Assembly (NCBI GenBank): GCA_029204225.1 | Contig: CM055099.1 | Coordinates: 65,127,852-65,191,851 of the forward strand | Direction: 5' to 3' | Length of the DNA stretch: 64,000 bases | Source: Diphasiastrum complanatum | Lineage: Eukaryota; Streptophyta; Lycopodiopsida; Lycopodiales; Lycopodiaceae | Part shown: one piece after another, positions 8,353 through 37,115 of the stretch | Position numbering within the stretch: the stretch's first letter is position 1 | How the letters are laid out: each line of letters begins with the position of its first letter | Made by a program: the position numbers and the translations under genes | Notes under the pieces: generated by a model | Seen by the model: the letters and a program-made list of their open reading frames with translations, nothing else | Database searches by the model: none | Told to the model about the DNA's origin: nothing

Positions 8353-8887
8353 GAACCTTCGCAGAGCATCAAGATCATCCTACCAACCTTCGCAAGGTAT
8401 ATAAATGAAATTAGAAGCAGCGAAACTAGCCTGCCTACATGGTTTGATCTTGAAAATCTAATCACAGGAGCATGTTGTGAGAGAGATCATCGCTCTGCGA
8501 GACTTGAACCCTCGCAAATAGTCTGAACCCCCTCGCAAAACTTTCGCAGGGCAGTCAAATCACCTTCTGAACTCTCGCAGACTTTTTGAGGTCTTAGAAT
8601 TTTGTGAAGAAAGCCCCTTCCAAAATTTTGGGTGGAATTGAGCAAGGGAAAGTGGATTTCACCTAATATGCACTCTAAATTCCGTTATATAAGGGGCTGA
8701 ATTCGAGTCATTTGTCACCTTTGTTGGCGAAGCTCTGCTCAGATTTTCACTAAAATTTCCAAATTTATAGAAGAAAAATTTCCGACGGGGGATTGGTCTC
8801 TCCAAGAAGCCCTACAGGAGAAGGGCCCACACTGCTCTTATGCGAGTGATTGAGGAATGCCGCTTCCAATCCCGAGGGCCGTCTCAA
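8353..8887. repeat. Unassigned sequence ending in a dispersed repeat
   Basis: 8353-8700 has no gene but carries many TCGCA/TGCGA words (cttcgcag, ctcgcaaa, tctgcgag). From about 8787 (gacgggggattggtc) the sequence matches, with divergence, the stretch at about 25768-25960. The match is interrupted at 8887 by Copia B and resumes at 14831 (ccgatgagggttttc). This is therefore an older dispersed repeat that served as target for Copia B. What the repeat encodes, if anything, is unknown. Confidence 0.6.
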
Positions 8888-9128
8888 TGTCAATAATCTG
8901 ATGAGCACTATCAATCAATCACCATAAGCAATCACCAAGAGAAAGAGGAAGAACACACCATCACACTATATCACACTGAATGAAAGAGAGTACAATAAAC
9001 CTTGAATATATATATAGAGAGAAAAAACTAGTAGTTGGACTATAGACTAGCCTACATCTACTTACAACTGGTAACAGTTGTCAACAGTAAATCGTAAACA
9101 GTAACAAGTTTATTCATTGTTTCTAATA
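8888..9128 (-). repeat. Left LTR of Copia B (241 bp)
   Basis: Begins TGTCAATAATCTG, like the right copy, and ends TTTCTAATA where the right copy ends TTTCTAACA. It is preceded by CTCAA and followed by a CT run (9129-9137) that is a polypurine tract on the minus strand. It contains only a short tatatatata-gagaga run where the right LTR has a large expansion. Confidence 0.92.
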
Positions 9129-12100: not shown

Positions 12101-13261
12101 GGTAGCAATTGGCCATCAGCTTGTCCAACTTCATCGCCATTGTGGATTTCCTTGAATTCCAAAAACCACTCCTTTCTTGAAGTCATGTGCTTGGTTGCTC
12201 CACTGTCAATGCACCAGATATCCTTTGCTTCGTCACTTGTCATTAGCGTCGTAATGAACAAGTTTGAGTTTTCACCTGTATCATCTTCATATTGATCATC
12301 ATCGAATTGATGTTGATTAACATAATTGTCTTCATAATGATCATCATCAAATTGATGTTGATCAGCATAATTGCCCGCCTGCCATTTGCCTTGTCTTTGT
12401 GCTATCTCCTTTTGTTCCTTGAAGCATTCACACTCCCAATGGCCAGGTTTGTTGCAGTACCTACAATTTCTAGGTTTATTTTGTCTGGAATAGCCACGTC
12501 CTTGACCTCGGCCTTGATTCCAATTGCCTCAATTAGGGCTATCATTGGCTTGCTCATGAAATTGTTGAAATGATCCCCCGGCTTGAGTTTCCTCCTCTCG
12601 ATTGATACCTACCATGGCCAAATCTTCTGTCTCGTCCTCTAACTGCAAGAGCTTGATCATAGCCCCTGTTACAATGATTCAAGTTCTCTTGACATTGCTC
12701 TTCCTGCAAGAGCAATCCACCTAGCTCTTCATAGGTTGGAAGATTCTCCCGTGTGGCAATGCTTGTCACAAACATCTGATGTGACTCACTCAAGCTATTC
12801 AATGTCAATTGAACGATCTCGCGATCCTGTACTCGCTCTCCAACGACAGCTAGTTGATCACGGATCTCCTTTACCTTCAATAGGTGATCGGCAATAGTTG
12901 CACCATCATCCATCCGTAATGTGTGCAGCTTTGTCTTCAGGAATAGCACTCGAGCTGTGTTTGTGGTCTCAAACAATGCCTTCAACGTATCCCACGCTTC
13001 TTTCGGTCCTTCCAAATCCAAAATGTAGGGAATGATAGCATCTCTGACTGACAAGCTGATGACATTCTGTGCTTTCTGTTTTCTCCTATTAAATGCCCGC
13101 TGATCTTCTTCAATCACTGGCCTTGTCTCCTCACCTGTCACGATCTCCCATAGCTCCTTTTCCATCAGAATGTTTTTCAATTTGAATTTCCAAACTGCAT
13201 AGTTGTCGACTCTTTCCAATTTGCCAAATTGCCATTTTTGAAAAAATTTTCCATCTCGCAA

Positions 13262-14488
13262 AGATCTCCAATTTCAAAGATTTTTATATCAGCGCATAGC
13301 CCTTTGTACCAGCATAGCTCTTGTCTAATCAAATCCAAAAAATAGTCTCTCTAGCTAGGTCAAAATATCACTCTGTTTTCTGCTTATCTACAAAAAATAC
13401 AAAGTAGACAGACCTTAAACAAAAGTGGCCTAGTACCAATGTTAAGGGCCCTTTCAAAATTTCAGTTGAAGTTGAAGAAAGATGAATGAAAACTTCAATG
13501 AATTTTTGGCCGTTGGATCTGTGCAAGATCTGTGGTTCATATCAGCTTGTTTCTTGCCTTTCACATGTGGCATTCATCCACACATGCGCTCTTACTTTTT
13601 GTGTTTGTAATGGGACCCAACCCCTGTAGACGCTACATTTTTGGAGCTGTTTGTCGCGCGACTCCTGGGCCTCCCCTTGCGCGTTTCGAACAGAAGGGTA
13701 GGCATTTCACCCCAAAAAAAAACAGGCGTTTTGGGTCAGCAGACTGATGTTTCGGGGCCGTTGATGGCGTTTCGGGATCTTTTGGCAGCATTTCGGGCTT
13801 GTGTGCCACGTTTCAGACCTGTTCAGCACCTTTCCAATAACATAATGCAGCCAACAAACCTACAAAACACTGTTTTCCAGTCAAAAAACTCTGTTTTTCA
13901 CTCAAATCTCCACCAAAATCTGTGATTTTTTATGTAATGGGTTACAAATCCAACTCTCCTTGCAGGTTGCTACCTCCCAACACTACTCTAACTGAAAATG
14001 ATGGAGGATACTGAGTTTTCCAGACCTATCATACTTGTTTGCACAAGTTCCATAGAAAATCACAAAAGTAGGCTAAAACTCAATGAAATCACAGTTTCTC
14101 AGTTCCTAAATGCTTCATAACTATGAATGGCAGTACTAGACACAGTCTAGTGTGATTTGCAATTCCCCAAACAAACAAATGAGGGATTTCTTGGCAAAAC
14201 TCTCACACAAATGGCACTTTTCACACAGAACTTGGAAGTATTGTAAAAATCTCCCAACTCAACAGGATTTCAATTTGTCTGATGCTACTCTGGCCTTTCT
14301 GATGCCTCCGGGACCGTGTCTTCATTCCCCGCTGATGATTCTGAGCTCCAAAACCTGCAAAATACTCCAAGGAAGAATTTCTCTCAACTTTTGCCTCTCC
14401 AAGCTTTCACCTCCTGTGAAGGACTTCCTCACTTCATTGTGAAGCCTGTGACAAGCTGTATCCACTGATCAGACACGCAGGACTATCG
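13262..14488. other. Long leader of Copia B, no coding content
   Basis: About 1.2 kb between gag and the primer-binding site. No frame resembles a known protein. At 13427-13441 the plus strand reads ggcctagtaccaa followed by TGTTAAGG, which on the minus strand looks like an LTR end (CCTTAACA) followed by a primer site resembling TTGGTA(T)C(AG)AGGCC. This suggests that leader or LTR was acquired from elsewhere. Confidence 0.5.
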
Positions 14489-14501
14489 GGCTCTGATACC
14501 A
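14489..14501 (-). other. Primer-binding site of Copia B
   Basis: GGCTCTGATACCA, the minus-strand TGGTATCAGAGCC, matches initiator tRNA-Met and lies next to the right LTR edge at 14502. A second, less perfect site occurs about 1.06 kb further into the element (13427-13439), close to gag. Confidence 0.9.
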
Positions 14502-14825
<324 letters not shown>

Positions 14826-14830
14826 CTCAA

Positions 14831-16289
14831 TTACCCCGTGATCCCCAGCCGATGAGGGTTTTCTAGGCCCCCAAAGGCACGGCTGTAAGGAGGTGTAATT
14901 GCAATCTCAGTCCTATCGGTCTTGATACCTAGGCTTTTCATCATCTAAATCGTCCACCCCTTTATATAGAAGTCCACTGAGGGGTCGTCACTACTGGTTT
15001 CCTCTCTCTCTGTTTCCGGTGGATCTAATTCTGGGGGTCTATTGGTATTACTAGCTGGTCCGGGTGACTGCACTGGCGATCCGAATGGTATGGGGTGAGT
15101 CTCGTGTAATCGGTGGACACGGCGTAAGTCAGATACCAGAACCCATTGATTATGAACTCATAGGTTTCAAAGTAACTATAGCCCCCGCAATGTTGTATTC
15201 TAAGTATAGTATCTCCCGCTCGTAGGTAAGGGTGGAGTGCTGGGGTATATAAATAGTAATGTGTGGCTCCTTCTCGGATCAATTGACAAACATCTCCTAG
15301 TGTAGGGTGGAACTGAATCTCATCCATTATGTTCAAGGGTCCAACCCCCCACGAGGAAGGAAGCTATTCGGCGCGTCCCCCATCTCAGGTCTCTAGAGGC
15401 ACCTACTGTTGTCAAGATGGGATCATATCTATAACTCAAGATACTGTTCTGGGCAGTTTTGCTTATGCCAACGTTTTTGATACTTCACAGTGGTCGAGAT
15501 TCACGGCTAGAGGTTACACGAGTGTACCTACTCACAAATACTATAGAGATCTCTGTATGGGTACTCAGTTAGCAATCATGGGTCAAATGAGATGAAGTCA
15601 TCGTCTATTGCTTAGTCACATTTACTTGGAATGTGTCGCTAGAGTGTTCAACCAAGCATGCTGAAATAAACAAACAATCATCAAATGATTATACTATAAT
15701 ATCATGATTAGTCTCGTGCAGTGTGAGGGTGCCAATTATACGCGTCGCCTTGTTTGATAGGCGATAGTATTTTGCCAAGCATCAGGCCTAGGTATTTCGC
15801 TAGGCAATTCCAATGATGGAGGTGACTATGATGACTCCTAACCGAGTGGTGTGTTTCAACCACGTACGGTGGACGACCCGCTCTTCTATTCAAAGAGGTC
15901 AGGTTAGTGACTCAAAGTAGGAACAAAAACGATTCATTCCCAAATACAACATGAAATTGAGTTTTGCAAACTAAGCACAAGATGCGTAGAGATTTTAACC
16001 CTGAATAAGTGTCAGCATACTATGAAGAGATACGACTAACATACCATCTAACTTGATCATCATTAAACAAGTCCATATCAAGATAACAATACCCATTTAA
16101 GACTCGGAGCCTAGTCAAATCCAGTTTATGCTAAGTTAGCAATGCCCACGAGATTCCAAGAAAACGACATCATAGGCCACAACATAAGAACCTACGGATG
16201 TAAAAAGACATGCTTTAGCAAAGAACCGAAATTATACCTTATGTGAAAAAGGAGAACCGGTATGTCCTTGGGCTCCCCCCAATCATGAA
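14831..16289. other. Right half of dispersed repeat, then unassigned sequence
   Basis: 14831 to about 14900 continues the repeat broken by Copia B. Beyond it no known gene is seen. A short TATA-like run (ggtatataaatag) lies near 15245. One open frame on the minus strand (15025-15336) is listed separately. The remainder up to 16289 shows no motif I recognise. Confidence 0.4.
15025..15336 (-). CDS. Unrecognised 103-codon open frame
   Basis: Reads MNIMDEIQFHPTLGDVCQL and ends DQLVIPIDPQN. The composition looks protein-like: it is rich in aromatic residues (YYLYTP, GYSYFETYEF, NGFWYLTY) with no low-complexity stretch. No family is recognised. Compact size and a region full of retroelement debris suggest a fragment of a mobile-element gene, or a chance frame. 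There is no start-site support beyond the ATG, and neighbours give no context. I consider expression unproven. Confidence 0.25.
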   Translation of the reverse strand: MNIMDEIQFHPTLGDVCQLIREGATHYYLYTPALHPYLRAGDTILRIQHCGGYSYFETYEFIINGFWYLTYAVSTDYTRLTPYHSDRQCSHPDQLVIPIDPQN

Positions 16290-19432: not shown

Positions 19433-22161
19433 TATCAACTCTTTCTCTCCTAGGTCGTGTTTCATGGCAAATCTTAGGGATGGTAGTTCCACCTCAATAG
19501 GCAAAACACATTACTGCCCATACACTAAGAAAAATGGAGTATGATTGGTGCTAGTCTTGTATGTGGTATTGTATGCCCATAAGGAAGAGTATAGTTTCTT
19601 ATCCCAATCTCGTTGGCTTTCTGACATAGTCCTTCTTAGAATACCCACTAACTGCTTGTTCGTGCTTTCTGCTTGACCATTGGCCTGTGGGTGGTAGGGG
19701 GTGCTTTTACGATGTTTGATCGTTAGCTGATCATTTAGGGCCTTGATTGTTTTGTTCAAGAAGTGGGTCCCTCTATCAGATACGATATCCCGAGGAGTAC
19801 AAATTGTCCTATCATTTGTTCAAGTAAGAACCAGACTGTTGCTTTCGAGTTATCTTTTGCTACTGCTCGTGCTTCGGCCCATTTAGTAAAATAGTTGGTG
19901 GCTACTATGATGTAGTGTTTTCTACTAGATGATGCCAGGTGTACTGGTCCCACAAAATCGATACCCCACTTTTCGAATGGAAGGCATGCCTGTATAGGAA
20001 TTAATGAGCGTACCCTGTTTTCTGATATATCTACCCGTTGGCAAGTATCGTAGTTTTTCGCGTGGGCATGAGAGTCTTGGAATAGTGTCGGCCACCAATA
20101 TCCAGCCCTTAGAACCTTCTGTCCTGTGAGTTGACCGGCAAAGTGGCCACCGCAAGCGGAATCGTGGCACTCTTCTAGGACAAATTTAGCTTCCTTGGGG
20201 GTTATACAACATTGGTATATTCCTTCCACCCCTCGTCTATATAAGATCCCCCCTATGAGTGCAAACTTCAAGGCTTGCAGTCATAACTTCCATTTTTCCT
20301 GGGTGGTCATGTCCTTGGAGGTATCTAATTCGATAAGTAAGTTGCTAATGCCGCATACCAAATGGGAATCTGTGCCATGTCTACCTTCAATAGTTCTTTC
20401 AAGTGATCTGTCTCCCACTTGCTATCGGTGTTGGTCACTCCTCCTAGCTCACAGATGCAGCCAATCAATCCTTGTAACCTAGGTGGGTTGCTCTGGAGGG
20501 TATAGTCAAATTCATGAAGAGATATGATCCACTTCATCAGTCGTTTGGGTGGTTCCAGTTTGTTCATCATCAGACTCACTGCCATGCTTTTGGTAAAGAA
20601 GGTCACTTTCCGGTGTAATAGGTAATGTCTAAGTTTTGCGGCGGCGTAGGCTATACCCAAACATATCTTCTCAGCCTTTGAGTAGTTAAGCTCTACCTTG
20701 TTCAGTTTCCTTCCTATGAAGATAATAGGGTGGTAAATCTTATTCCAGATCTGAGCTAAGCAACAGTTGATGCATGTATCAGTGGTGCTAGTAAATACGT
20801 AGAATTCCCTATCGTACATCGGTGGTTTCAGTATTGGGGCATTAGCCAGGGCCGTTTTTAATCCTTGGAAGGACTTCTCGCACTCTTCGTCCCATGACCA
20901 CTTTGGTTTCATTTTTCAATAAGCCTGTCATGGGGTATGTATGGGAGGCGTAGGCCATCATGTATCTTTTGTAATAACCAGTTGAACCTAGGAAAGTTTG
21001 AAGTTGACTCATGGTGGTGGGGGCCATCATAGCTAATATCATGGCGATCTTTTCGGGATCGGTGGCCATGCCGTATTTATTGATCACATGGCCTAACAAC
21101 ACTCCATATGGTACCCCAAACAGACACTTGTTGGCATTCAAGGTAATGCAGGTGGCTGCGCACTCTCTCTCTCTCATCGATGATGGATTTGGCCAGTAGG
21201 TAATTGACTTGGCATGGAGCTCTGGATAGACTTGAGAGTATTTTGAAACTCTTTCATGAGTTTCTCCATTTGTTGCTAGTGTTGCTGGTTAAGCAACTCC
21301 ATTTGTGTTTTCCATAATTGTTCTCTTGTTTCCTCATTTGGTCAGGCTTCTTGAACAACACGATGTGCTCTCCGTTCACGTGGCTCATCGACATCTAATC
21401 CCTCGTCTTCTTCTCAAATGGCATCAGAGATGGCTTGTTTCAATGATTGTATTCATCATTGGAGCAAAGTCCACGTCGTATCCATTGTGGGAGTCCAACG
21501 AGAAACCAAATGATGAGCATAGATTCGGTTGGTTGTTCCTGTACCTGACTTTTTAATCTTTTAAATCTTTTTATGTAGTCATGTACTTTCTCATCTTTTG
21601 TCATTTTAATGTTACTCAACTTGACAAAAGGACTTTCAATCAAATGAAATGGCTTGAATCATTTGGTGAATGCTTCCTTCAAGAGTGACCAGTCTCGTTT
21701 ATCTTCACAATCAAGGTTAAAAAACCATTCTCGTGTTCGATTGATCATGGTCATCGAGAAGAGTTGAACCATGGCTTCTGGTGATGTCTTGCCATAGACA
21801 TCACATGCATTCTCAAAGACTTGAAGAAATCTTTGAGGGTCAGTGTTGCCGTCGTACTTAGGTAAATCTAACTTTGCAGTATGTTTTTCAGTACGCAGGG
21901 CATTATTTGAAAAGCTCCATTTAGGTGAGCGCGTGTGTGGGATGATTCTGCAATGTGAAAGTGTGGGCAATCGTATGAAACTTCATCTCGCATGGATTTC
22001 CATCGTTCAAATGGGTTAGTGGAGGGCTCATGGATTTGGGACTTCATCCTAGAATATCTATTAAATTGAGCCTGTTCGGTAGATGGAAAGACCATCTCTG
22101 GTGGATAGTCCTCTGCGGAATTCGGATTGTAAGGACGATCCATAGCAACTCTGGAGTACAT
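19433..22161 (-). mobile_element. Ty3/gypsy remnant E
   Basis: A minus-strand Ty3/gypsy fossil. In its own direction: gag (about 22.16-21.44 kb, with LPKYDGNTDPQ and the REWFFNL..DW block), the C-terminal part of reverse transcriptase and RNase H (about 21.18-20.33 kb, with LGHVIN, FLGSTGYYKRY and LNYSKAEKICLGI), integrase with H2C2 zinc finger and core (about 20.27-19.51 kb, CHDSACGGHFAGQLT, GIDFVGPV, YHPQANGQAES), and the integrase tail (PIEVELPSLR, to 19.43 kb). Protease and the reverse-transcriptase palm are not recognisable. It is broken, with more than five breaks, and no LTR pair is identified. A duplicated copy of its gag 5' part lies just to the right (22605-23143). It looks old. Confidence 0.85.
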
Positions 22162-22391
22162 AAAGATTGAGTATATAGGTCTCTTGGACTCTTTTGTAAC
22201 TTTGGGTTTTATTTGTTTTTTTTTTTTGTGTCAAGAATATTAGACAGAGTCTAATGATGTGGGGTGTTCAAATGGCACAATGTTTGATGATAGGGTTTTG
22301 CAAAAAACTGGTGTGAGAATCATGGTAATTGGCCAATACTGAAATCTAGTCAAATAATAGAGTTGACTCTGTTTTGGAGTTGACTTGTTCG
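21851..22391. repeat. Duplicated segment, copy 1 (gag 5' region of gypsy E)
   Basis: Begins gtcgtacttaggtaaatc. It recurs almost unchanged at 22605-23143, offset 754 bp. It includes the start of gag and the upstream leader with a poly-T run (near 22209). Confidence 0.9.
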
Positions 22392-22451
22392 ATATTGTAA
22401 ATTCAAACACTCGGTTGAAAATTGATAGAAAACACGGATTGAGATCTGAGA

Positions 22452-22594
22452 GAATGCCTTCGGTCGAGATGTGATAGAAGTCTCCGGTCGAGATTTGACA
22501 GAAGTCTCCGGTCAAGATTTGATAGAAGTCTTCGGTCGAGATTTGACAGAAGTCTCCGGTCGAGATTTTACTGGAATTCCTCGTTTGAGATCTA
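22452..22594. repeat. 24-bp minisatellite, five to six units
   Basis: Units of gaagtctccggtcgagattt plus four more bases run from 22477 to 22572 in four clean copies, with a diverged unit on each side. The period of 24 bp equals eight codons, so the minus strand reads as a repeated octapeptide (TGDFCQIS-like). It lies in the gap between the two copies of the 540-bp duplication. Confidence 0.85.
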
Positions 22595-22604
22595 AACAAA
22601 TGTC

Positions 22605-23143
22605 GTCGTACTTAGGTAAATCTAACTTTGCAGTATGTTTTTCAGTACGCAGGGCATTATTTGAAAAGCTCCATTTAGGTGAGCGCGTGTGTGGGAAGAT
22701 TCTGCAATGTGAAAGTGTGGGCGATCGTATGAAACTTCATCTCGCATGGGTTTCCATCGTTCAAATGGGTTAGTGGAGGGCTCATGGATTTGGGACTTCA
22801 TCCTAGAATATCTATTGAATTGAGCCTATTCGGTAGATGGAGAGACCATCTCTGGTGGATAGTCTTCTGCGGAATTCGGATCGTAAGGACGATCCATAGC
22901 AACTCTAGAGTACCTAAAGATTGAGTATATAGGTCTCTTGGACTCTTTTGTAACTTTGGGTTTTGTTTGTTTTTTTTTTTTTGTGTCAAGAATATTAGAC
23001 AGAGTCTAATAATGTGGGGGGTCCAAATGGCACAATGTTTGATGTTAGGGTTTTGCAAAAAACTGGTGTGAGAACTATGGTAATTGGCCAATACTGAAAC
23101 GTAGTCAAATAATAGAGTTGACTTTGTTTTGGAGTTGACTTAG
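22605..23143. repeat. Duplicated segment, copy 2
   Basis: Near-identical copy of 21851-22391 in the same orientation, with only scattered differences (for example gatgattctgca against gaagattctgca). High similarity indicates a duplication much younger than gypsy E itself. Confidence 0.9.
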
Positions 23144-24144
23144 TCAATAACTGAACATGATAGTGAATCACTTATTAGTGCCGAGAAAAAAAATTGAGAG
23201 AAGAATCAAACACACAATTATATCTTGCAGAAAAGACATCTCGTTTGGCTACTTTGTTGTTTATATTTGTAAAAATTACAGCAAATAAGGATCCTAAAAC
23301 ACTTGAAATGATGAGGGAAACAATAGATTATGATTTCATAAGATTAGCACAAGTTGAACCATCAAAATCCATCAAAAATCTATGCTTGAACCTCACTAAA
23401 TGGCCCAAATCCTTGAAGAAGGCTTCACACGTGTGAAAGTACGGCCTCCCACAGTCTGAGTACTGTACACCAGACCTACATTCAATCCTATAATCATTAG
23501 TAATCACAAGTACTCAAACAATTATGAACATAGAGAGCAATTGCACCATTATGAGAGAAAAAACATGAAATTGCTTGATTGATTTTGGTGAGATATCATC
23601 ACCTATATATACATGATCCATCACGATTTTGGGCAGGTATGAGTAGCCCTAAACCTATCCCTAATTCTAATTTTGGTGGATCTTTCATCCCTACCAAGTT
23701 AGGGTTGGAATCTTGGAGATCCCTCAACAATGCAAAAATTACCAAAAATAGCTCCTATTTTTTCTCCCTTGTATCTAAGCATAATTTGGACTCATTCCAA
23801 AGGTTCTAACACTTAGGTCTACTTGAGAACATCCTTATGAATGGAATCCTATGCTATTTGGCACGTGTGACAAGCCACATCATGACCATCTAACTATTTA
23901 CAAGTCATATGACCAAAACTAGTCAAGCTAGAATTGTGAATTTTTAACAATATTGAACCTCCAAGCAAAATATAAATGGAGTGATACAAGTGTTACATCC
24001 TTATTTGGGTAAATAAGATTGAGATTTTTTTTAAAGAATTTAATAGATGTGTTGTTCAAGTCAAATGTTTTAGTTGGCTAAATGATCTTTTATTTTATAT
24101 TATGAAAATTCATTTCATCATGTACAGGTTTTTGCGCAAACTAC
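23144..24144. other. Unassigned sequence between gypsy E and the CACTA gene
   Basis: No gene is recognised. A CACACGTGTG palindrome lies at 23426-23435. The stretch 23.58-23.82 kb is LTR-like in texture (short promoter-like 'ctatatatacatg' run) but has no partner repeat in the window. Confidence 0.35.
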
Positions 24145-25193
24145 TCCCATAAGGGAACACTATGTTAGAGACAAGAGGTGAGGCACGAAAAATGTTGAGT
24201 GCAATGGGAATGGACTACACATTGCATCATGCTTGTCCAAAATATTGCATCTTATATCGTGGTGAGTATCGATGGTTAAAAGCTTTGCGATACTCCTCGA
24301 TATTGAGATGACTTACAAGGGACTACTATCCCATGCAAGGTGTTACAACACTTTCCAATAATCCCATGATTGCAACGATTGTTTCGTTGCAAGTCTCTTG
24401 CAAAACTTGTGAATTGGCATGCTAGTCATCGTTCTTCGGATGAGATCATGAGAGTACCCTCAAACTCTCCTGCATGGAAACACATCGACAAAGAATATCC
24501 ATGTACAAGTGAAACAAGAAATATAAGATTTGGACTTGCAACAAACGGGGTTAACCCTTTGGAAAAATGTCAAGCATGTGGTTTACTTGGCCAGTGTTGT
24601 TGGTCAACTATAACATTCCACCTTGGCTAAGCATTAAAAAACGACATCTCATGCTAGCACTTCTAATTGCCAGAAAACATAAAGTAAAAAAATATGGCTA
24701 TCTACTTTGCACCATTGATTGAAGAACTACAACTACTATGGAAGGGAGTCCAAGCATATGAGATCTCACGTCCACTTCAAGACAATACATTTTTGTTGCG
24801 TACAATTTTAATTTGGACTATGCATGACTATCCAAGATTGGGCGATTGTCCAGGTGACTATAAAATGAAATCACTTGTAATTTTTGTATATTTATTTTTT
24901 ATGCATGCAATATTTATTCTTTAAAAGAATTCTATTTATAACACAAATTGGATTTGAGTCTTTTAGGTTTTACAACTTCTGGATATCACGTTTGTCTCAT
25001 TTGTGGACCAAATATTGATGCTCGACACTCACGTCATTTAAACAAAGTTGAGTATAAAAATCATCGCAAGTACTTGCATGATGAAAACGATCCATTTAGA
25101 AATGCTCATAGAAGAGGCTTTGGAGGAAGATCAGAAACAAGAATGCCTCCAAAGAGAATGTTTGTGGAAGAAAATCAACAAAAAAAAGTCTAA
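24145..25193 (+). pseudogene. CACTA (En/Spm-type) transposase, TNP2 family, degenerate
   Basis: The plus strand reads as the TNP2 transposase of CACTA DNA transposons. Recognisable blocks in order: ARKMLSAMGMDY and HACPKYCILYRGEY (24.20-24.26 kb), QRLFRCKSLAKLVNWHA and SPAWKHIDKEYP (24.37-24.50 kb), RFGLATNGVNP, WPVLLVNYNIPPWL in another frame (24.58-24.63 kb), APLIEELQLLWKGV (24.71 kb), LIWTMHDYPRLGDCPG, and GFTTSGYHVCLICGPN followed by a HR-RYLH block. At least two frameshifts (near 24.57 and 24.69 kb) break the frame. A spliceable intron is visible at 24854-24966 (GTGACT...TTTTAG) that joins GDCPG to FTTSGYHVC exactly as in the family. The C-terminal half of TNP2 is absent. Sub-terminal repeats follow directly. 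Confidence 0.85.
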
Positions 25194-25231: not shown

Positions 25232-25411
25232 GACGCTTGAGATCGATACCAGAACTGAATATCGGTTTCGAGCGCAAAATATACACAAAATATTTTACGA
25301 AATGAGATGCGCACTCGAAAGCAATATTGGACTAGCAGCGGTATCGGTCTCGAGCGCACTGTGAGAGGGCGGAAGCTTGAATGGTGAGAGAGAGCGCTTG
25401 AGAGCGATATT
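25232..25411. repeat. Array of five 18-bp motifs in alternating orientation (CACTA sub-terminal type)
   Basis: Variants of GCGCTTGAGAGCGATATT occur at 25232-25250 (+), 25258-25275 (-), 25309-25328 (+), 25340-25357 (-) and 25394-25411 (+). Such arrays of short inverted and direct motifs mark the sub-terminal regions of CACTA elements, where the second element protein binds. They start about 40 bp after the TNP2 remnant. The CACTA terminus itself is not found. Confidence 0.7.
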
Positions 25412-26649
25412 GAGCGAAAACGAAAAATTTTGCAAAAAAAAAATGAAAATTCTGAGGACTTATACATACAAAAATTTTTGCACGTGTGAAAAGACGGCCG
25501 AAACACGTGTCGTCAACTAATTGGTCCACGTGGAATGTCTGTACTGACAATGATGACTCAATTATGAGGCCACATGGGCTGGGACATGTGCACCAATCCA
25601 TTTTCGACGCATGTCATTCTCGCACATGACACATGTCAGATCAATCATTCTAGGTATGGCGCATTAATTTTGACCAATCACAAGTCGACATGTATTCTTT
25701 CGCTACTCCTCCACACGTGCGAATTTTTTTTATAAATAGGTTTTTATCGGTGTTAGGGCCTATTTTGACGGGGGGTTGGTCCAGTCTAAACGTCCTAAAA
25801 GGGCCAAGGGGCCCCACATCTATTGGTGGTTCGGCCCTACGTGAGCAATAGAGGATTTGCCACTTCCAACCCTGATGGCCTTCTCTAGTGCCCCGTGCTC
25901 TCCAACCGATGAGAGTTTTCCAGGCTCTCAGAGATACGGTTGCAAGGAGGGGGCTTGACGATTCTCTATAGTCATTTTACTAACCGAAAAATATGTCAGA
26001 CGACTTCGTAAAATATCAAATTGAGAAAAAAATCTGTTTCTTACTCTTCCCTAACACATGTACTCCAATGTGACGTTAACAACACATGGCCCAAATGTTT
26101 TCCAGTTTCATACATTGAAAATAACAACAAATAGGTAAATCACTCATATATACCCACAGCTTAGCTATAATCTCAACCCAATTTTTGTACTCGTGATAGT
26201 GCCAAATGCTTCAGTATTGATATCAAAACTAATTATTCGGTTAAAGGAATGCGAATGTACGATTCAATCACCCTAGGAACAATGGACTCAAACATAATAC
26301 ACACCCAACAATGATGGTTTTATCGTTTTAAGAAAGTACAATCAATTCTTAAAACTCAAAATCAACAAAAATACTTCAGAAACCCTTCTTCAAACCAAAA
26401 CTGTTTATGGCTACATACCACACTCTATTCCAACTGAAAGAAGACAACGTACAGAAAATGGCATCACGAAGATAAATTGATTGTGAAAAGTGTGAGTCTT
26501 ACCTTAATGTGCCATTAGGTAGCCGTTGCGTGGAAACTCTAGTCATGAACCTTGTAGCAAAAATCAGAGTCAGGCATGTTGATGCAATTTTCTCCACTTT
26601 ACGCGTGTCCGATCGAATTGGTGTAAAAAGAGAAAATGAAAAAAATTAA
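25412..26649. other. Unassigned sequence containing a second copy of the dispersed repeat
   Basis: About 25768-25960 is the second copy of the repeat targeted by Copia B (gacggggggttggtcc ... ccgatgagagttttcc ... ggttgcaaggagg). A TATA-like tttttataaatagg lies at 25729-25742, ahead of the repeat. The rest, 25.96-26.65 kb, is AT-rich with no gene that I can support. Confidence 0.5.
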
Positions 26650-26752
26650 AGTTTCTAGAATAAGTTTCCCAAGGAGAGCACCACCAGGGCAGCAGGCATA
26701 CTTGACTTGATACATTCAGATTTGTGGGGGCCAATCCAACTATCATTGAGCT
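26650..26752 (+). mobile_element. Copia-type integrase scrap (G)
   Basis: The plus strand reads FPKESTTRAAGILDLIHSDL then WGPIQ, the segment between the integrase zinc finger and the core, matching the same passage in Copia B. It is a fossil of about 100 bp with no repeats attached. Confidence 0.7.
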
Positions 26753-28074
26753 ATTTCAAGCAACTCACAATCCTTCTAACCAGCCCACAAACATTGAACT
26801 CACCTCAAGCAATCAATCAAGCCAAAGTTTAGAATACACCTTACTAACTATGGACTTAACAACACACAAGCAACAAACAGGCATGAGGGCACAAAGCAAC
26901 CATTAACCTCCCACAAACTACTAACCCACATTGCAAGTGACTAACATTGAGCAACTAACATTCAAAATGGAATTAACTTCAAAGCACACTCAAACAAGCA
27001 AGCAACTCCCAAAAGTGCCAACTCCTAAAATAACTAACACACAAAAGTACTAACATACAAAAGTCCTAACATTTGAAATACAAGGAGTTGGCTCCTTCTT
27101 ATAGGAAAATTCAATGCATCCCCTTCACAATGCCATCTTGCCATTCTTCATGCCCTTCAAGCCCTCTTTGCCATTTGTCCCCAACCCATTTGATAGTACA
27201 CCTAGTGGCCTCCATAAGAGAGTGGGGGAGTGGTGCATTCAAGGCTCTCTTTCAAAACTACCCAAGATGCCATTTTTGTCAAAGGCTGGGGAGGCCATTC
27301 AAGTTTCCCCTTTTGTACACCCTAGAAGCCCAAAATGTCAATGGCTAGTGGTTGTACCTCCCAAATTTTTAGCCTCCAAGGTGTTTTGGCATTTATTATC
27401 CAAATTTTGGGTGAGGCCCTTTTTCAACCCCTATTTTTAGTAGGCGCTTCGTTTTTCTTTGGGTACCTGTGTTTTTGGCCTTTCTTCGATTTTTCAAGGG
27501 TTGTGCGCCTACTGCTCATTTGTCTGGGTCTTTGGTCTGTTGGGTAACTACTTGGCTCGCATATTTCGTTAATTGCCCGTAAATTTACCAAACTTTGTCG
27601 TTAGGGTTTTTGTGACTCCTTGACACTGAATCCATATTTTTCGGTTTCGGGTAAATCTCGGTTTTTTTTTCTGTGGTTGACTTTTTCGGCATTCATGACT
27701 AGGGCTCCCACGACAACACGGTTTCCCTGAAAAATACACTGAGTGATCATATATTAGTAAAAATAAACTCAGTACATGGTGAGATTTTAGCATGGTCATA
27801 CCGGCTATTTTTTTTACAACTGGCCATTTTTTTGAAAAGCCATAAAATATTTATCGGCCATTTTTAAGGCCGCAAATTTGCTCTAGCCTCATTTAGGGCG
27901 GGCTGGGATCCAATTCTAGGTGGACCGACACTTTTGGCTCGGTCTTACAAAACTTGACCACAAACTATTTTTGACGATTTTTTTGAAAAGTCAATTTCTT
28001 ACTTTTAAACTGTGTCTAGCCACTTTAGGGACGGGATGGGACCCAATTCTAAGGCAAAATTGTGCCAATTTTTT
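26753..28074. other. CA-rich low-complexity stretch and unassigned sequence
   Basis: 26.76-27.07 kb is rich in caa/aac words with loose repeats of 'actaacatacaaaagt' type. 27.07-28.07 kb has no recognised gene. Short open frames there are low in coding character and are not called. Confidence 0.4.
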
Positions 28075-28253
28075 GCGCCTGGAACCGATACTACCTCGTC
28101 CGGTATTGCATTCAAGCGCGCATTACATCTCCTTTCTTTTGTGCTCTGTGTTCTTGCACTCGGATCCGATACTCCAATTTGAAGTATCTCTCTCGGGTGC
28201 ACATTGCCTTGACGTGCTTGCTTGACCTGCAGTTTGCGCTTGAGAGCGATATT
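28075..28253. repeat. Second array of the 18-bp motif, four copies
   Basis: Copies at 28075-28092 (+, gcgcctggaaccgatact), 28102-28119 (-), 28156-28173 (+) and 28236-28253 (+). The last, GCGCTTGAGAGCGATATT, is identical to the copy at 25394-25411. Start-to-start spacings of 27, 54 and 80 bp look like multiples of about 27. The array ends 32 bp before an ATG that opens the next frame, so it occupies a promoter-like position. Confidence 0.7.
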
Positions 28254-28284: not shown

Positions 28285-29637
28285 ATGTCTGATTTTGATT
28301 CTAGTTTGCTTTCTTCTCTTCATTAATTTGGTATTACTGATAGTTTGGAGTATTTCAAATCTCTTTTTTCTCTTTTTCTTTTTATTCTTCCTTCTATAAC
28401 TGAGGGCCCTAGTGTGGAGGCATTTTCTGAGATATATCTCAAATTTAAGTCTCTACTCAGTACTCCGTTATTCAGATATCAGAATAAGGACATGATTTAT
28501 TATCATGACCTGGTGGCACTCGACAAGCATATCTATAAAGCTAAGCTTCACATAATGTTTACCAAGTTACATAATGATTTCAAGTTTGTAGATGAGTGCC
28601 CAATTCATAATAAAAAATGTATATTTGTTGATTTTCAGTCTGCTTTTGTTTTTTTTCTTTTGTTAAATATTTCTCATGATTCAGAGGCTGTCCCTTCCAC
28701 TTTTGAAACTACTTCTTCTAGTGGTACAAAGTCTGAAAAGTCAAAGATTGTAGATATAGATATTTTAATTATTGATACGAGCGTTGATTTAGGTGATTGT
28801 TCTGATTTTGATCTTGCTCAAAATAGGGCATTGTTTATAGGCCTTAGAACACCCACTACCTTTTCTCCTTCTGATAAATTTTTGATCACTTTGCCTACTC
28901 ATAATATAGATAATAATTCCTTTTTGACAATATCGGATATATCAGATCTTTTTTACTTCACTGAAGCTGAGGCTCTTTGTAGTTTGAGCAAAGAGCTTGA
29001 TGAATTTTCGGATATAATTGATTTTGATGCTGATGATCTTCTCCCTGGTGTTGATGATGTACATAATGATAAGTTTTATTCAGGAAAAGATTGCTTGAAA
29101 ATGGCTGTGGAGGAAATGCACAACAAAGAAGATGATCTACCTTCTGAGGAGGAGTTTCTTAGAATCCAAAGTCAACTTGGTTTTCCACAACCAACTGTCT
29201 ATTCACCAACAATATTGACATCGAAAGGTGGACATAATATTGATGGAGAGACAGTAATCAGGGAAGACAAAGTTGAATGCGTAAGTTTTTGTATCTTATC
29301 ACGTACTAGTAGATTCGTTATGTCAGATTATATACTGGAGCTTTGTTTTTTATCATTTCAGGAAACAATTTTCCTTGATGATTTTGCAATTCGTCGAGGA
29401 GGGCAGAGATCTTCTGCTGGAGAATTTTCAAGAGATCATGCACTGGGGCACTATCTGAAGTTTTTCAAGAATAATGAGATAAGTGTTGCCCATTCAAAGT
29501 TTCATCAACATGGTGAAACTATGATTATGGCAATCAAGGGTTCGTTATTTGTTATGTTGTGGAACCGAGTCAAATTTGCCGATTCCACCCATAATTTGGC
29601 TTGCTCACTCAAACTCGCCCATCGGGTTCGCGGGTAA
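28285..29637 (+). pseudogene. Unrecognised acidic protein gene with an 81-bp intron and an early stop
   Basis: ATG at 28285 opens MSDFDSSLLSSLH, then TAA at 28324-28326. The same frame continues FGITDSLEYFKSLFSL and stays open to 29637 (about 450 codons in all), so the stop may be one recent C-to-T change or the true start may be lower. A canonical intron lies at 29281-29361 (GTAAGT...TTTCAG). It is 81 bp, a multiple of three and without stops, so both spliced and unspliced forms are in frame. The middle is acidic (DIIDFDADDLLPGVDDVHND), and after the intron it reads ETIFLDDFAIRRGGQRSSAG and HQHGETMIMAIKG. No family is recognised. The 18-bp motif array directly upstream, shared with the CACTA region, suggests a second gene of a CACTA-type element. 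A host gene is the alternative. Confidence 0.5.
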
Positions 29638-31600
29638 AATAGGTTCTTGGGTAAAACCTGGTGATTGATCTAGCAGCCATTGGTTTACATTAAGGAGTAA
29701 GAAACATGAAGATCAAGAAAAGCTCAAAGTGCAACTAATAAGTCCAGCATGGATTCATAGTTCCTACCAAAACCCAGCATGGCCTCTCATCCTCTTCGGA
29801 TTTTTAAGTGAAACCCTCTCAAGAAGAAACTTCCATCTTTATTAATACAAGAACGATGTGGTATTGTACCACAAAGGCCTTGCCATGTCATAGTAGCATG
29901 AATTTGTTTTTTATATTGTTGTGATAAATTATTTTGTGTTAGTAAATGTTTGTAATTTTACAGCTAAATATAAAACTTTTAAAATTAACAAAAGTAGTGA
30001 ATTTCACGATGTAATTTTTACAATTTCATGATGCACGTTTATAATTGTAGAAAATGAATATCACAATTTACTATGTACAAATTGATGAAAGTAGTTATAA
30101 ATTTTGTAATTTTCAATTTCACAATTAAATTCACAACAGTGGTTTGTGCAATTAAATACTCACAATATTACAAATTTCATCATAAATATTATGAGAGTAA
30201 CCACAAATATCATGATTCAATACTCACTGATTTCATGATTCAATATAATTAATAGATTCACATTTGGTATAAAAACAAATCACAATCTATTACTTACGCT
30301 AAAATATTCACAATTTAGTATTTAGAAAAGTTCACATTTTTTATTCACAATTGCACTATAATTTAAAATATGTTTCAATCAAAGTATTCAAAGTTTCACG
30401 GTCAATATTTAGAGTTTCATGATTAATATTCATAATAGCCCGATTAGTATTCACAGTTTCACTATCAGTATTCACAATTTCACGATCAATATTCATAGTT
30501 TCATGATCAGTATTCACGGTATCACCATCAAAATTCAAAGTATTCACATTTCAATATTCATGTTTTAGTATTCACACCTCAATCCATCAACTCTTCATCC
30601 AAACTGCAAAAAGGTCAAACACAACGCAAACAAAGAAAAGAGATTGAGGATGTTGAGTAGTAATAAATTATTTTGTGTAATTATTTTGTAGTTTCAAAAT
30701 TTGGATGGCAGTTTGTTCTAAGTTTTTAACAAAGTACATTTGAATGTTAGATGAGATCTATAATATTTGTTATTTATTTTAAAAGTCAATTTATTATAAG
30801 TTTTGTACAAAGTTGTTTTTTAGAGAAAGATGTTGATTCCATTCTTGCACTTGTTGGCTTTTTCAAACAATGGCCCAAAGTTTGAATCAAAATCCTAATT
30901 AAAAAGGATAAATTTGTTATATGACTTTGTTATATTTTGAGCATTTTGGCCCATGAGTTGTTGAAGAGCCTAGATAAACTATCTTGTTTTAGAGGAATCG
31001 TTGATTTTTTCTTTGTACTTTGCAATTTTTTTGGAATTTCCTTCATGTTTTTGTATGAAATCTTCAACAGATATTTCTTGCTCACTGAAATCGTAGCATC
31101 GGGATCAAAAGCATTGCACAACATTTGCTTGAATGTTGTGCGACGGGATATGATGATTCAGTAGAAATGAAAAGACGTTGAAAATCCATAATAATCACAT
31201 TTTAACATTCATAATTTGTATTTACGAAAGTCCATATTACTCATAATTACGTTGTAGAGTATTTTAGTACTTGAGAATATTCAAAATCAATATTCACGAT
31301 CAATATTCACAACACGTATTCACAATATTCACGTATCTCATAATATACGTTTCTCAATATTCACAATTTCACATCAGTATTCACGATTTGTATTCACAAT
31401 GTTTATGATCAGTATTCACAATATTCACGATCACTATTCACAACATTCACGGTGAAAATATTAAAATATCATTTTTTCAGAATCTCAGTTTCTCAAAATC
31501 TCAAAATCTCAGTTTCTCAGTTTCTCAAAGTCTCAAAATCTCAGTTTCTCAAAATCTCAAAATCTCAGTTTCTCAGTTTCTCAATTTCAACGATCACAAA
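29638..31600. repeat. AT-rich region with 'tattcac' satellite-like repeats
   Basis: 30.00-30.55 kb and 31.2-31.47 kb consist largely of degenerate units built from tattcacaatttcatgat. The clearest block is 30380-30545, a 21-bp minisatellite which on the minus strand reads as a heptapeptide repeat of the type NTDxETV/NIDRETM. 31470-31590 is a second simple repeat of tctcaaaa and tctcagttt words. No gene is seen in 29.64-30.33 or 30.6-31.2 kb. Confidence 0.7.
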
Positions 31601-32497: not shown

Positions 32498-33078
32498 TCG
32501 AGGATACAATTCAAGACTGCTCCTACCCGAAGCTCAGATGGAGTTTTTCGTTTGCCAGTCGCCAAGCTGCTGGAAGCAGCAAACATGATTGCAGCGGCTG
32601 TACCCCTAGGACTGAAGAAGTACCACTCCAGGTCATGCATCTTCAAACAAGATCTATCTGCAGTAGTCATAAGACAATCAGCAACATCTTCTGAGGTCGT
32701 TCATTGTTTTCTTAAGTCGTGCATCATGATAGATAAATGAGAAGTTACACATAATTCTACAACAGCCCATCCTTTTTCATAGAATAACTTACGTTATACT
32801 ATCTTCCTGCATCGTGTGCAGCTGATACATGCAACAAAAGCAACACATACAAAACTTTGTAAAACGCTTTATCTTTATATATGCAAAGTATGCATACCAG
32901 GAAGATTCCAAGGTTCTCACTTATACAGCTCGATCTGAGTGATGCATTCAAATTCAAATATTAGGCCATTGACTTTTCGGTGAAGATAATAGGCTACGAG
33001 TTTCTCATCGCTAGGATGGAATCTAATATGAGAGGATACTATCGGCTGTTGGACAGCACATGCAGCCACATTTGCCAT
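32498..33078 (-). pseudogene. NAC-domain transcription factor pseudogene
   Basis: NAC proteins are plant-specific DNA-binding transcription factors. Exon 1 (33078-32898) starts MANVAACAVQQP and contains subdomain A-B residues RFHPSDEKLVAYYL and RKVNGL, then IELYK and EPWNLP. TGA at 32919-32917 replaces the usual Cys codon in ELYKCEPW. A canonical intron (GTATGC...CTGCAG, 32897-32658) lies at the conserved NAC position. Exon 2 from 32657 reads SCLKMHDLEWYFFSPR (subdomain C), then shifts frame, with a diverged KYxxxxR...GYW-like passage in the next frame. To the left only a doubtful trace of subdomain D/E (GIRANH) is seen. It is broken by at least one stop and one frameshift. The retained intron means it decayed in place or from a DNA duplicate and is not a retrocopy. 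Confidence 0.85.
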
Positions 33079-34551: not shown

Positions 34552-37115
34552 ATGGCGGATTCCACTTCGCTTTGTGAGACCGATATTAACACCCTTGCCA
34601 GGTTTCTCTGCTCTGCCTCACTCCATTTTCTCATCTTTTTGTTCTTAATTCACCTATTTCCTTGGCGTCCTTACAGCAAATCTTCAAAACCAATGAACAT
34701 GCATGTTGCTCTGATTCTCAATTTTTACATTTACAGGGTTCAAGTTTTCTTTTGCAAATCTTCATAACCATAAATGGCTAATCATGGTTTTTCTGATTCG
34801 CAATTTTAAAATTAAAAGGTTAAAGTGTTTTCTTAACGTCCTTGCAACACATATTCGTAACCATAAACGCATGCATATTCATGATTTTCTGATTCGCCAT
34901 TTCACATTTACAAGGTCCTTCCTTAACGTCCTTCCAACACATCTTCGTAACCATTAATGCATATTCATGTCTTTCTTAATTCGCAATTTCACATTTACAA
35001 GGTTCAAGTCTTTCCTTAACGTCCCCCAACAAATTTACATAACCATAAATGCATATTTTCATGTTTTTTCTGATTCGCGATTTACAAGGTTCAAGTGTTT
35101 TCTTAACTGCCTTGCAACACATATTCACAACCATAGACGCATATTCATGATTTTCTGATTCGCCATTTCACATATACAAGGTTCAAGTCTTCTCCTTCCA
35201 ACAATTCCTCGTAAACCATAAATGTATACTGATGTTTTTCTGATTCGCAATTTCACATTTACCTGGCTCAAGTCTTTCCTTAACGTCCTTCCGACAAATC
35301 TTCATAACCATAAATACATAAGCATTTTTTCATATCTACAAGGGTCAATTTAGTCTATTCCTTAACGTCCTTCCGACAAATCTTCATAATTCATCTTTTT
35401 CTGATCAACAATTTTACAATTAGAAGGTTCAAGACAATGAGACAGGAGACTGCTGAAGAGATCATGTTGTCTTGCTTCGTTTTCAATGGTTGTGAGAAGA
35501 ACCGACTTGTTTACCAAACAGATAATTTAGCTGTGATGAGCTTTAACGTTTGTCGTTATTGTCAATGGAAATCTACAGAGATTGGATGCTTTTCAGCCAG
35601 AATTATTTGTTTACATGGCTATGATGTTTCTTTATTGTGGTTTTCTGTCAGCTCCTTGGCGGCAGAGATTGAGAGCAACACTTGTCCGATCTGCTTTGAG
35701 CTCATGGCCTCCCCCCATCATTCACCAGTTATTCTTTCTCCTTGCGGCCACACGTTTTGTGCCAAGGTCCTCACTTCTTTTTCTCTTAATCTTGAATTTT
35801 CTTCACTTTGTACGCATGAGTTGCGATAAAAATGCTTGACACCAAATCTCACAAAAATGTTTTCCATTTTAGTATCGAAGTCCAAAATCGCTAAAATGAG
35901 AAATATGTATTGTAGTCAGGACTTGTATTTCAAGTCTCTGTAAAGAGTTTGAGCGAATGTGATTGACGAATGTGAGTTCTTAAATGGCTATTCTGCAAAG
36001 AACAACCACCAGTAGAAGTTTCCATACAAGTTTGAGGATTTGTTCATTAGCGTATTTTTTAGGACTATTAAGCTATGTTGACATTCGCAACACCGTATAC
36101 TCAGTAACCTAGCTGAAACTATACTTTTCCAACAGTGTTTAGCTTTGCAGACTACGTTCAACCACCAAAAGACCTGTCCATATTGTCGTCAGAAAATCTC
36201 TTCCCAAGCTTTCAATTTGTCTCTGAAGAAGCTAATTGATAATTTTGTGGCATTGCAAAAGAAAGCTCTTCTTGAAACAGATTCCCGTGCAGATATTAAG
36301 CAAAAGAAATGTATAGCATATATGACCGCAGGGGTAACTACACAGTATGTTCATGAGAAGCTTTTGCAAGCAAAAATAAGGATCGCTGTTTTACAAAAAG
36401 AGCTGCACGAGACCGCGGAAATACAAAACGTCAGTGACGCCCCTTCACACTGTGACAACTTACGTAGTTCTGATGTTCGTCAAAGGCTTTTAGACAGAAA
36501 CTGCATCTAAGAAATCGCATGCTAGTTGAATTTCATTTTTGCAGCGCGTGGACACAGATCTGAGGTCTGCAAGACAAAAAAGGATAGAACTGGAGAGACA
36601 AGAACAATACGTCAAAGACAAGCTCCATGAAGTAGGTGAATATGTGATAGAATTGACCAAACTTGCTTTGGAAAATATAAGTGTGATTGACAGTCTGATT
36701 TGTTTAATCATCTTCAAAGAATTCCTAGCAAGTAGTAATCTCAATATGCGTACCTTTGTAGAAAAAAATTTCTTCTATAATGTTCGTCAATATGAAACAC
36801 CTGTGCTGCCTTGTCATTTTTGGTTGCAATATACAGGTCAAATTGGAGCACAAGATGATAGCTTCAAAATTGCAAAAGAATGAAGCAAAACAGTTTTCGC
36901 TTCAAAAGCTTCAAGAGGAAACACAGAACAAAACTGCTCTCGTCAAAGCCTCTATCACAACCTTGGAGAAGGTCTGACCACCTTGTGTTAGTTTAGCCTA
37001 GTTATTAGCCTATGTCTAAATTCCTGAATGCTGAACTAATAATTTGTTCCTGCAGGAGTGTGAAAAGTTCAGATTGCTTATATCTGAGCGAAATGAACAG
37101 GATCCTGCCTTTTGA
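34552..37115 (+). CDS. RING-finger coiled-coil protein, probable E3 ubiquitin ligase, six exons
   Basis: Six exons give an uninterrupted 246-residue protein: 34552-34601, 35652-35766, 36136-36429, 36545-36631, 36837-36971 and 37056-37115 (TGA). All introns are GT...AG and all phases agree. The start MADSTSLCETDI sits in a good plant context (ATGGCG). Residues 28-72 form a complete C3HC4 RING: C28, C31, C48, H50, C53, C56, C69, C72. An SLKKLIDNFVALQKK stretch follows, then a long charged helix (about 110-240; RSARQKRIELERQEQYVKDK, KNEAKQFSLQKLQEET) that should form a coiled coil, giving a TRIM-like RING plus coil without B-box. RING proteins of this kind pass ubiquitin from an E2 to a target, and the coil would allow dimers or target binding. 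The substrate is unknown. The donors of exons 1, 3 and 5 (gtttct, gtcagt, gtctga) are weak, so exact splice sites carry some doubt. Confidence 0.82.
34657..35430. repeat. ~88-bp minisatellite filling intron 1 of the RING gene, about nine units
   Basis: Each unit contains ttccttaacgtccttccaac, then a cttcataaccataaatgcat word, then ctgattcgcaatttcac and ttacaaggttcaagt. About nine units of 80-93 bp can be lined up from 34657 to 35430. They are diverged from one another by substitutions and small indels, so the array is not newly expanded. It makes up most of the 1050-bp intron. Confidence 0.85.

Follow-up and report, generated by a model that had tools for sequence, protein, structure and literature searches.

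Soybean CACTA elements carry 17-bp subterminal motifs with GC-rich and AT-rich portions and palindrome-like pairing, four of which lie in the left 159 bp (PMC2613891). The subterminal regions of TgmR* in soybean were less methylated in the mutable line (PMC4219821). In Arabidopsis VANDAL elements the VANC motif is multiplied in non-coding parts of the element, where the element-encoded VANC protein binds and removes methylation (PMC5735166). Regularly spaced motifs in alternating orientation are furthermore described for the bacterial BIME/REP sequences (PMC2817692).

In the window (the whole stretch of 64,000 nucleotides analyzed here) we found ten 18-bp sites. They form two arrays of five, A1 (25233-25411) and A2 (28075-28253), each 179 bp in size and about 2.8 kb apart. 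The sites are:

25233..25250, plus strand: A1 site 1, ACGCTTGAGATCGATACC
25258..25275, minus strand: A1 site 2, GCGCTCGAAACCGATATT
25311..25328, plus strand: A1 site 3, GCACTCGAAAGCAATATT
25340..25357, minus strand: A1 site 4, GCGCTCGAGACCGATACC
25394..25411, plus strand: A1 site 5, GCGCTTGAGAGCGATATT, identical to A2 site 5
28075..28092, plus strand: A2 site 1, GCGCCTGGAACCGATACT
28102..28119, minus strand: A2 site 2, GCGCTTGAATGCAATACC
28156..28173, plus strand: A2 site 3, GCACTCGGATCCGATACT, with 7 mismatches to the motif of the first-pass annotation
28183..28200, minus strand: A2 site 4, GCACCCGAGAGAGATACT, absent from the list of the first-pass annotation
28236..28253, plus strand: A2 site 5, GCGCTTGAGAGCGATATT, identical to A1 site 5

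The strand order + - + - + was common to A1 and A2. The sites of A1 start at offsets of 0/25/78/107/161 bp (gaps of 25, 53, 29 and 54) and those of A2 at 0/27/81/108/161 bp (gaps of 27, 54, 27 and 53), with a summed difference of 6 bp between the two sets of gaps. The arrays are thus direct copies of one layout that face the same way and are not mirrored. All sites fall on a lattice of approximately 27 bp, on which the slots 0, 1, 3, 4 and 6 are occupied, and they include four inverted pairs that stand tail-to-tail with start-to-start distances of 25-29 bp and loops of 7-11 bases.

The first-pass annotation had listed nine variants of the motif in both orientations, five in A1 and four in A2. 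Both orientations and the count for A1 were reproduced, but the total is ten, since A2 also has five sites once 28183(-) is included. The A2 spacings of 27, 54 and 80 bp given there match the starts 28075/28102/28156/28236; with the overlooked site they become 27, 54, 27 and 53. The distance of 27 bp for the first +/- pair of A2 (28075+/28102-) was found again, whereas that of the first pair in A1 was 25 bp and not 26 bp. The copy said to be identical between the arrays is indeed the same 18-mer at 25394+ and 28236+.

Close known counterparts are the soybean Tgmt*/TgmR* elements and the TnpA sites of En/Spm, which share a motif of 17-18 bp, GC- and AT-rich portions, inverted pairs and four to five copies per 160-180 bp (PMC2613891, PMC4219821). 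As in plant CACTA arrays, A1 is located near tnp2 coding DNA. In contrast to the borders of Tgmt*, which are asymmetric with 4 and 24 repeats, A1 and A2 have the same five-site layout and direction. They further differ from plant CACTA arrays in the motif itself, in the lack of convincing CACTA ends and in ORF2, the gene after A2, which is unrelated by Pfam.

With the VANC targets the arrays have in common a short motif multiplied in non-coding DNA beside genes. However, VANC motifs are 8-9 bp long, and the VANC21 arrays have one orientation and are spread by tandem repeats (PMC5735166); the sites of A1 and A2 are 18 bp long and alternate on a fixed lattice, with spacers that are not repeated. 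A MULE transposase domain was not among the Pfam matches of the translated frames (plus strand 18-38 kb, minus strand 23-33 kb). Unlike BIME/REP, which are bacterial and palindrome-based, A1 and A2 lie in plant-like DNA and show no covariation of the pair arms. Judging by titles and abstract openings, no plant array of this layout was found in the literature, and a text search of papers, figures being outside its scope, returned none with the motif core in any of four 16-base forms.

To judge how distinctive the sites are, mismatch counts and scoring matrices were applied to the window. Allowing three mismatches to the motif of the first-pass annotation gave three matches (25258-, 25394+ and 28236+), a number reached by 0 of 100 dinucleotide shuffles. 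At up to five mismatches nine array sites and three positions elsewhere were recovered. At up to six, the window contained 34 matches, 25 of them outside the arrays in addition to the nine array sites, and lone sites are not distinctive at this threshold. The site 28156+, with its seven mismatches, was recognised by its place in the array and its matrix score.

A matrix built from all ten sites gave array scores of 21.6-27.8 bits, while the next position in the window reached 11.6 bits. Since this matrix was trained on the very sites scored, matrices were also trained on each array and tested on the other. With the A1-only matrix the sites of A2 ranked 2, 7, 8, 9 and 10, and with the A2-only matrix those of A1 ranked 2, 5, 6, 9 and 10, each time of 127,966 strand-positions. 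Cross-validation therefore placed five of five sites of the other array within the top 10 in both directions.

Under a null model chosen post hoc (gaps uniform from 18 to 60, random strands), the similarity of the gaps had P = 3e-4 and the equal strand order a probability of 1/32; given the four gap sizes, 4 of the 24 possible orders match as well as the observed one. The motif is sharply limited to 18 bp, and C2, C4, G7, A14, T15 and A16 were invariant in 10/10 sites. Counted from a CpG-rich consensus of our own choice, 28 of the departures were transitions, 10 of which fell at CpG, and 8 were transversions. The twin arrays are non-random, all evidence for conservation coming from these two arrays within one window.

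The position 27900(+), the best non-array match of the A2-only matrix (11.5 bits), was considered as an eleventh weak site; it lies off the lattice and was not counted. It is held by the first copy of a 37-bp direct repeat just 5' of A2 (27882-27918 / 28015-28051, 81% alike, 133 bp apart).

We propose that A1 and A2 are fixed-layout clusters of putative sites for one DNA-binding protein, probably that of a transposon, and we hold this reading with roughly even confidence. In the neighborhood of the arrays the following features were identified:

24439..25172, plus strand: decayed CACTA tnp2 transposase domain (Transposase_21), found in four pieces with the Pfam profile
28285..29280, plus strand: ORF2 exon 1, 332 codons, ATG 31 bases after A2, strong codon periodicity
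29281..29361, plus strand: predicted ORF2 intron, GTAAGT...CAG, 81 nt, phase 0, with splicing predicted from the sequence
29362..29545, end uncertain, plus strand: probable ORF2 exon 2, periodicity p = 0.06, not significant

The four Transposase_21 pieces cover positions 1-45, 41-81, 87-139 and 137-205 of the 213 of the profile; the reading frame is broken by two frameshifts and changes once more across a possible intron. The remnant ends at 25172, 60 bases 5' of A1, in accordance with the earlier description of the first array as following a CACTA transposase. Short queries for C-terminal transposase blocks, run against the window, gave a best E of 0.019 at 9767-9642 (-) and otherwise weaker matches, all taken as chance.

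ORF2 exon 1 contains one in-frame stop (28324-28326) and no frameshift in 996 bp. The open frame of 436 codons exceeds the maximum of 229 in 3000 simulations, and the codon periodicity of exon 1 is highly significant (p = 3e-17). This periodicity together with the in-phase intron, its GTAAGT donor and its CAG acceptor indicates that the 28.3-kb frame is the start of a real gene, which the first-pass annotation had listed as an unknown gene after the second array. The further suggestion that it may be the second gene of a CACTA element did not find the same backing, as none of the known second proteins of CACTA elements was matched by ORF2 in Pfam.

Against our proposal count the acidic nature of ORF2 exon 1 (pI 4.5), which is without a recognisable DNA-binding domain and had no match to Pfam up to E = 5, and the lack of convincing terminal repeats. 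Exon 2 matched only KNTase_C, below the cut-off (E 0.076). The stretch 28327-29280 had only matches of E 0.38 and 0.49 in the PDB and seven peptide-pattern matches, none of them a relative, in the viral contigs of IMG/VR, a collection without plants. A structure predicted for this stretch from one sequence had a mean pLDDT of 35, and the model was set aside. As a gene of the element, ORF2 is the strongest candidate in this neighborhood. Its 3' side is followed by AT-rich short tandem repeats at 30372-30565 and 31276-31588 (periods of 21, 22, 24, 32 bp and others).

The most complete form of the transposon explanation assigns A1 to the 3' and A2 to the 5' subterminal region of one CACTA family, in two neighboring copies or one rearranged copy, with ORF2 as the tnpA-like second gene. 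This is a special case of the transposon-array reading, takes its weight from within it, and appears to us somewhat doubtful. The position of the tnp2 remnant before A1 and of ORF2 directly 3' of A2 argue for it, as does the resemblance of the motif length, pairing and extent to the left border of Tgmt*. A common motif with unrelated spacers is also what would be expected of the two ends of one element.

The ends themselves argue in the other direction. Exact CACTA occurs within 24-30 kb only at 24158, 28854 and 29449, none of them placed as array-flanking ends. Among 13 left and 10 right candidates for near-CACTA ends before A2 and after A1, no pair had three or fewer mismatches in 13, so that the local part of the check named in the first-pass annotation, a search for CACTA/TAGTG ends nearby, yielded none fitting A1 and A2. 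Decay or truncation could hide such ends. Looser criteria gave 74, 82, 336 and 2 end pairs (total 494) with 1, 2, 8 and 0 matching 3-bp duplications (total 11). Since this is about the chance rate of 1 in 64, the looser pairs are not convincing.

One loose pair of 13-bp inverted ends, 27032 / 29944, encloses A2 and ORF2, is 11/13 alike with AAT on both sides, and speaks to that extent for the CACTA version. Its ends are not of the CACTA type, its start falls within a short tandem repeat, and A2 is 1 kb away; as such pairs occur at chance number it was rejected as element ends, and it is the best candidate for a second look. A comparison of the DNA after A1 with that before A2 gave inverted matches that were rejected as well, the best being 14 bp and perfect (25982-25995 / 27633-27646), by eye with no common continuation or duplication.

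Further points against the CACTA version are the direct rather than mirrored arrays and the unequal decay of the two coding regions: two frameshifts were found in about 420 bp of the tnp2 domain versus none, with one stop, in the 996 bp of ORF2 exon 1, which suggests different ages. Besides tnp2, no CACTA domain was among the Pfam matches at E <=0.01 in the plus-strand frames of 18-38 kb and minus-strand frames of 23-33 kb; Transposase_24, TNP1, DUF4218 and DUF4216 were all absent there. Because tnpA is strongly diverged between species, as has been described (PMC8195511), the lack of Transposase_24 and TNP1 in ORF2 weighs little.

Taken as clusters of putative binding sites of one system, as the first-pass annotation had it, the arrays are supported by the cross-validation, strand order, spacing and unrelated spacers; their identity as CACTA subterminal regions is less well supported, no fitting ends having been found. 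CACTA is the most likely family and the assignment is plausible. In view of the missing convincing ends, the same-facing arrays and the more decayed tnp2, we keep the claim of a transposon array apart from that of CACTA membership and a second gene.

Host regulation would do without a transposon: the sites would lie in two promoters, that of ORF2 and that of a lost or non-coding unit after A1, and be bound by a plant transcription factor. We regard this as unlikely. A2 does stand directly 5' of a real gene start, the stretch after A1 (25481-25740, plus strand) contains by eye a number of G-box-like CACGTG sequences and then, near 25.73 kb, TATAAATAG, and host-type NAC and RING domain pieces occur in the vicinity. 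However, for a host factor it would be unusual to find an 18-bp site, invariant at six bases, five times in one layout at each of two places 2.8 kb apart, and the surroundings contain decayed mobile elements.

From the promoter-like stretch to A2 there is no plus-strand frame of 150 aa. An ATG offset of 31 bases appeared by eye to be shared after both arrays; it was discounted, since the frame after A1 is only 25 codons long and no codon periodicity was detected over 25412-25800 (p = 0.95). The NAC (NAM) piece (32890-33000, minus strand) has a score equal to the cut-off, and the RING-type zinc finger piece (35683-35772, plus strand) is just above its own; upstream of the RING frame are tandem repeats with sizes of 85 and 264 bp.

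Several other repeats were seen in the window. A direct repeat of about 550 bp (21847-23149, 95% identical, 754 bp apart) has a 24-bp minisatellite between its copies. Direct repeats at 8887-9131 / 14501-14828 bracket minus-strand frames and resemble the long terminal repeats of a retroelement; the region 8887-14828 includes by eye a stretch like a primer-binding site. A copia gag match in Pfam, the NAC (NAM) piece and tnp2 give the window the look of plant nuclear DNA. The segments 25883-25950 / 14826-14893 are 78% identical and by eye could form the same stem with compensating changes (CAACCG/CGGTTG vs CAGCCG/CGGCTG). This stem had no Rfam match at the gathering score in the window and none in a permissive search of 25.2-28.3 kb.

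A different origin of the twin layout would be an old tandem or segmental duplication whose similarity was left at the motifs by chance. The equal length of 179 bp and the same layout are compatible with it. The four spacers, compared between A1 and A2, did not align beyond chance (p = 0.51, 0.08, 0.83 and 0.07; summed p = 0.07), although the two long ones come near significance (0.08 and 0.07) and leave room for remote common descent. For the 500-bp flanks, none of the eight comparisons between arrays had p < 0.05 (lowest 0.095); two of all 16 comparisons did, both being inverted repeats inside one flank, left of A1 and right of A2. If decay were neutral, one would not expect ten 18-mers to survive while spacers and flanks are erased, and we consider this origin quite improbable. 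As sites and layout are shared with no other detectable similarity, selection on the sites explains the arrays better than duplication followed by decay.

The base composition of the arrays also differs from that of the window. The CpG observed/expected ratio was 1.65 in A1 and 1.10 in A2 compared to 0.50 in the window, with 19 CpG in 180 motif bases versus 8 in 178 spacer bases. Three of the four 500-bp flanks exceed the window too (0.74, 0.93 and 0.85; the fourth, over ORF2, has 0.32), and the signal is therefore not confined to the arrays. The CpG richness of the arrays suggests low methylation or youth, and bears only indirectly on a loss of methylation caused by an element protein, as in the VANC system.

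Stem-loops, as cruciform DNA or RNA hairpins with no protein sites, can hardly be what the four inverted pairs with their loops of 7-11 bases conserve: folded as single-stranded DNA, two of the four do better than their shuffled versions (z -2.65 and -2.35) but the other two do not (z -0.66 and +0.78), and the arms agree at 12/18 positions in all four pairs, whereas the 24 plus/minus combinations (these four included) average 13.2, so that they are no more alike than arms of other combinations. Watson-Crick plus G-T pairing was likewise 14-15 within pairs versus a mean of 15.7, with no compensation. No Rfam family reached its gathering score in the window; in 25.2-28.3 kb only sroH appeared, at chance level (E 0.83; 15.9 bits, the gathering score being 80) and in a minus-strand position that overlaps the end of A2. 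A tRNA search found none, and a scan with bacterial promoter and terminator models, which do not apply to plants, gave no excess over shuffles.

Clusters of putative binding sites under selection would, on the sequence evidence, fit better than decayed duplicates or hairpins. In the proposed transposon-array reading, the 18-bp site GCRCTYGARANCGATAYY would be the unit recognised by a protein, each tail-to-tail pair probably taking up one dimer, and neighboring dimers may cooperate along the lattice of about 27 bp. The spacing of the A1 pairs varies (25 vs 29), which speaks against a rigid helical phase. The protein would most likely come from a transposon family, as TnpA does in En/Spm and VANC in VANDAL. 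When it occupies an array it might regulate the adjoining promoter, either repressing it or freeing it from DNA methylation, and it may also tag this DNA for the transposase. On this view A2 would be the promoter-proximal control region of ORF2, where a complex just before the gene start may either shut off transcription or promote it, and may protect the DNA from methylation. The site-pair pattern had no match in the viral contigs of IMG/VR and none in prokaryotic contigs, hardly a test as neither set holds plant genomes.

A bolder version, to which we would give little weight, takes ORF2 as a novel plant transposon regulator that binds an obligate five-site array with the geometry 0-1-3-4-6 on the 27-bp lattice and a set distance to the ATG. 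The layout would then be the conserved unit, on which a defined multimer assembles that prevents methylation of the array and activates the element. In length, one array roughly equals the DNA of a single nucleosome.

Should the layout turn out to be conserved as a unit in a transposon family, a compact DNA target with exact geometry would be at hand. Such a target may be of use in learning how TnpA-like or VANC-like regulators of plant transposons recognise their own element and resist methylation. It would also provide a sequence handle for finding the family along with its DNA-binding protein, a kind of protein that homology searches often miss because of its divergence.
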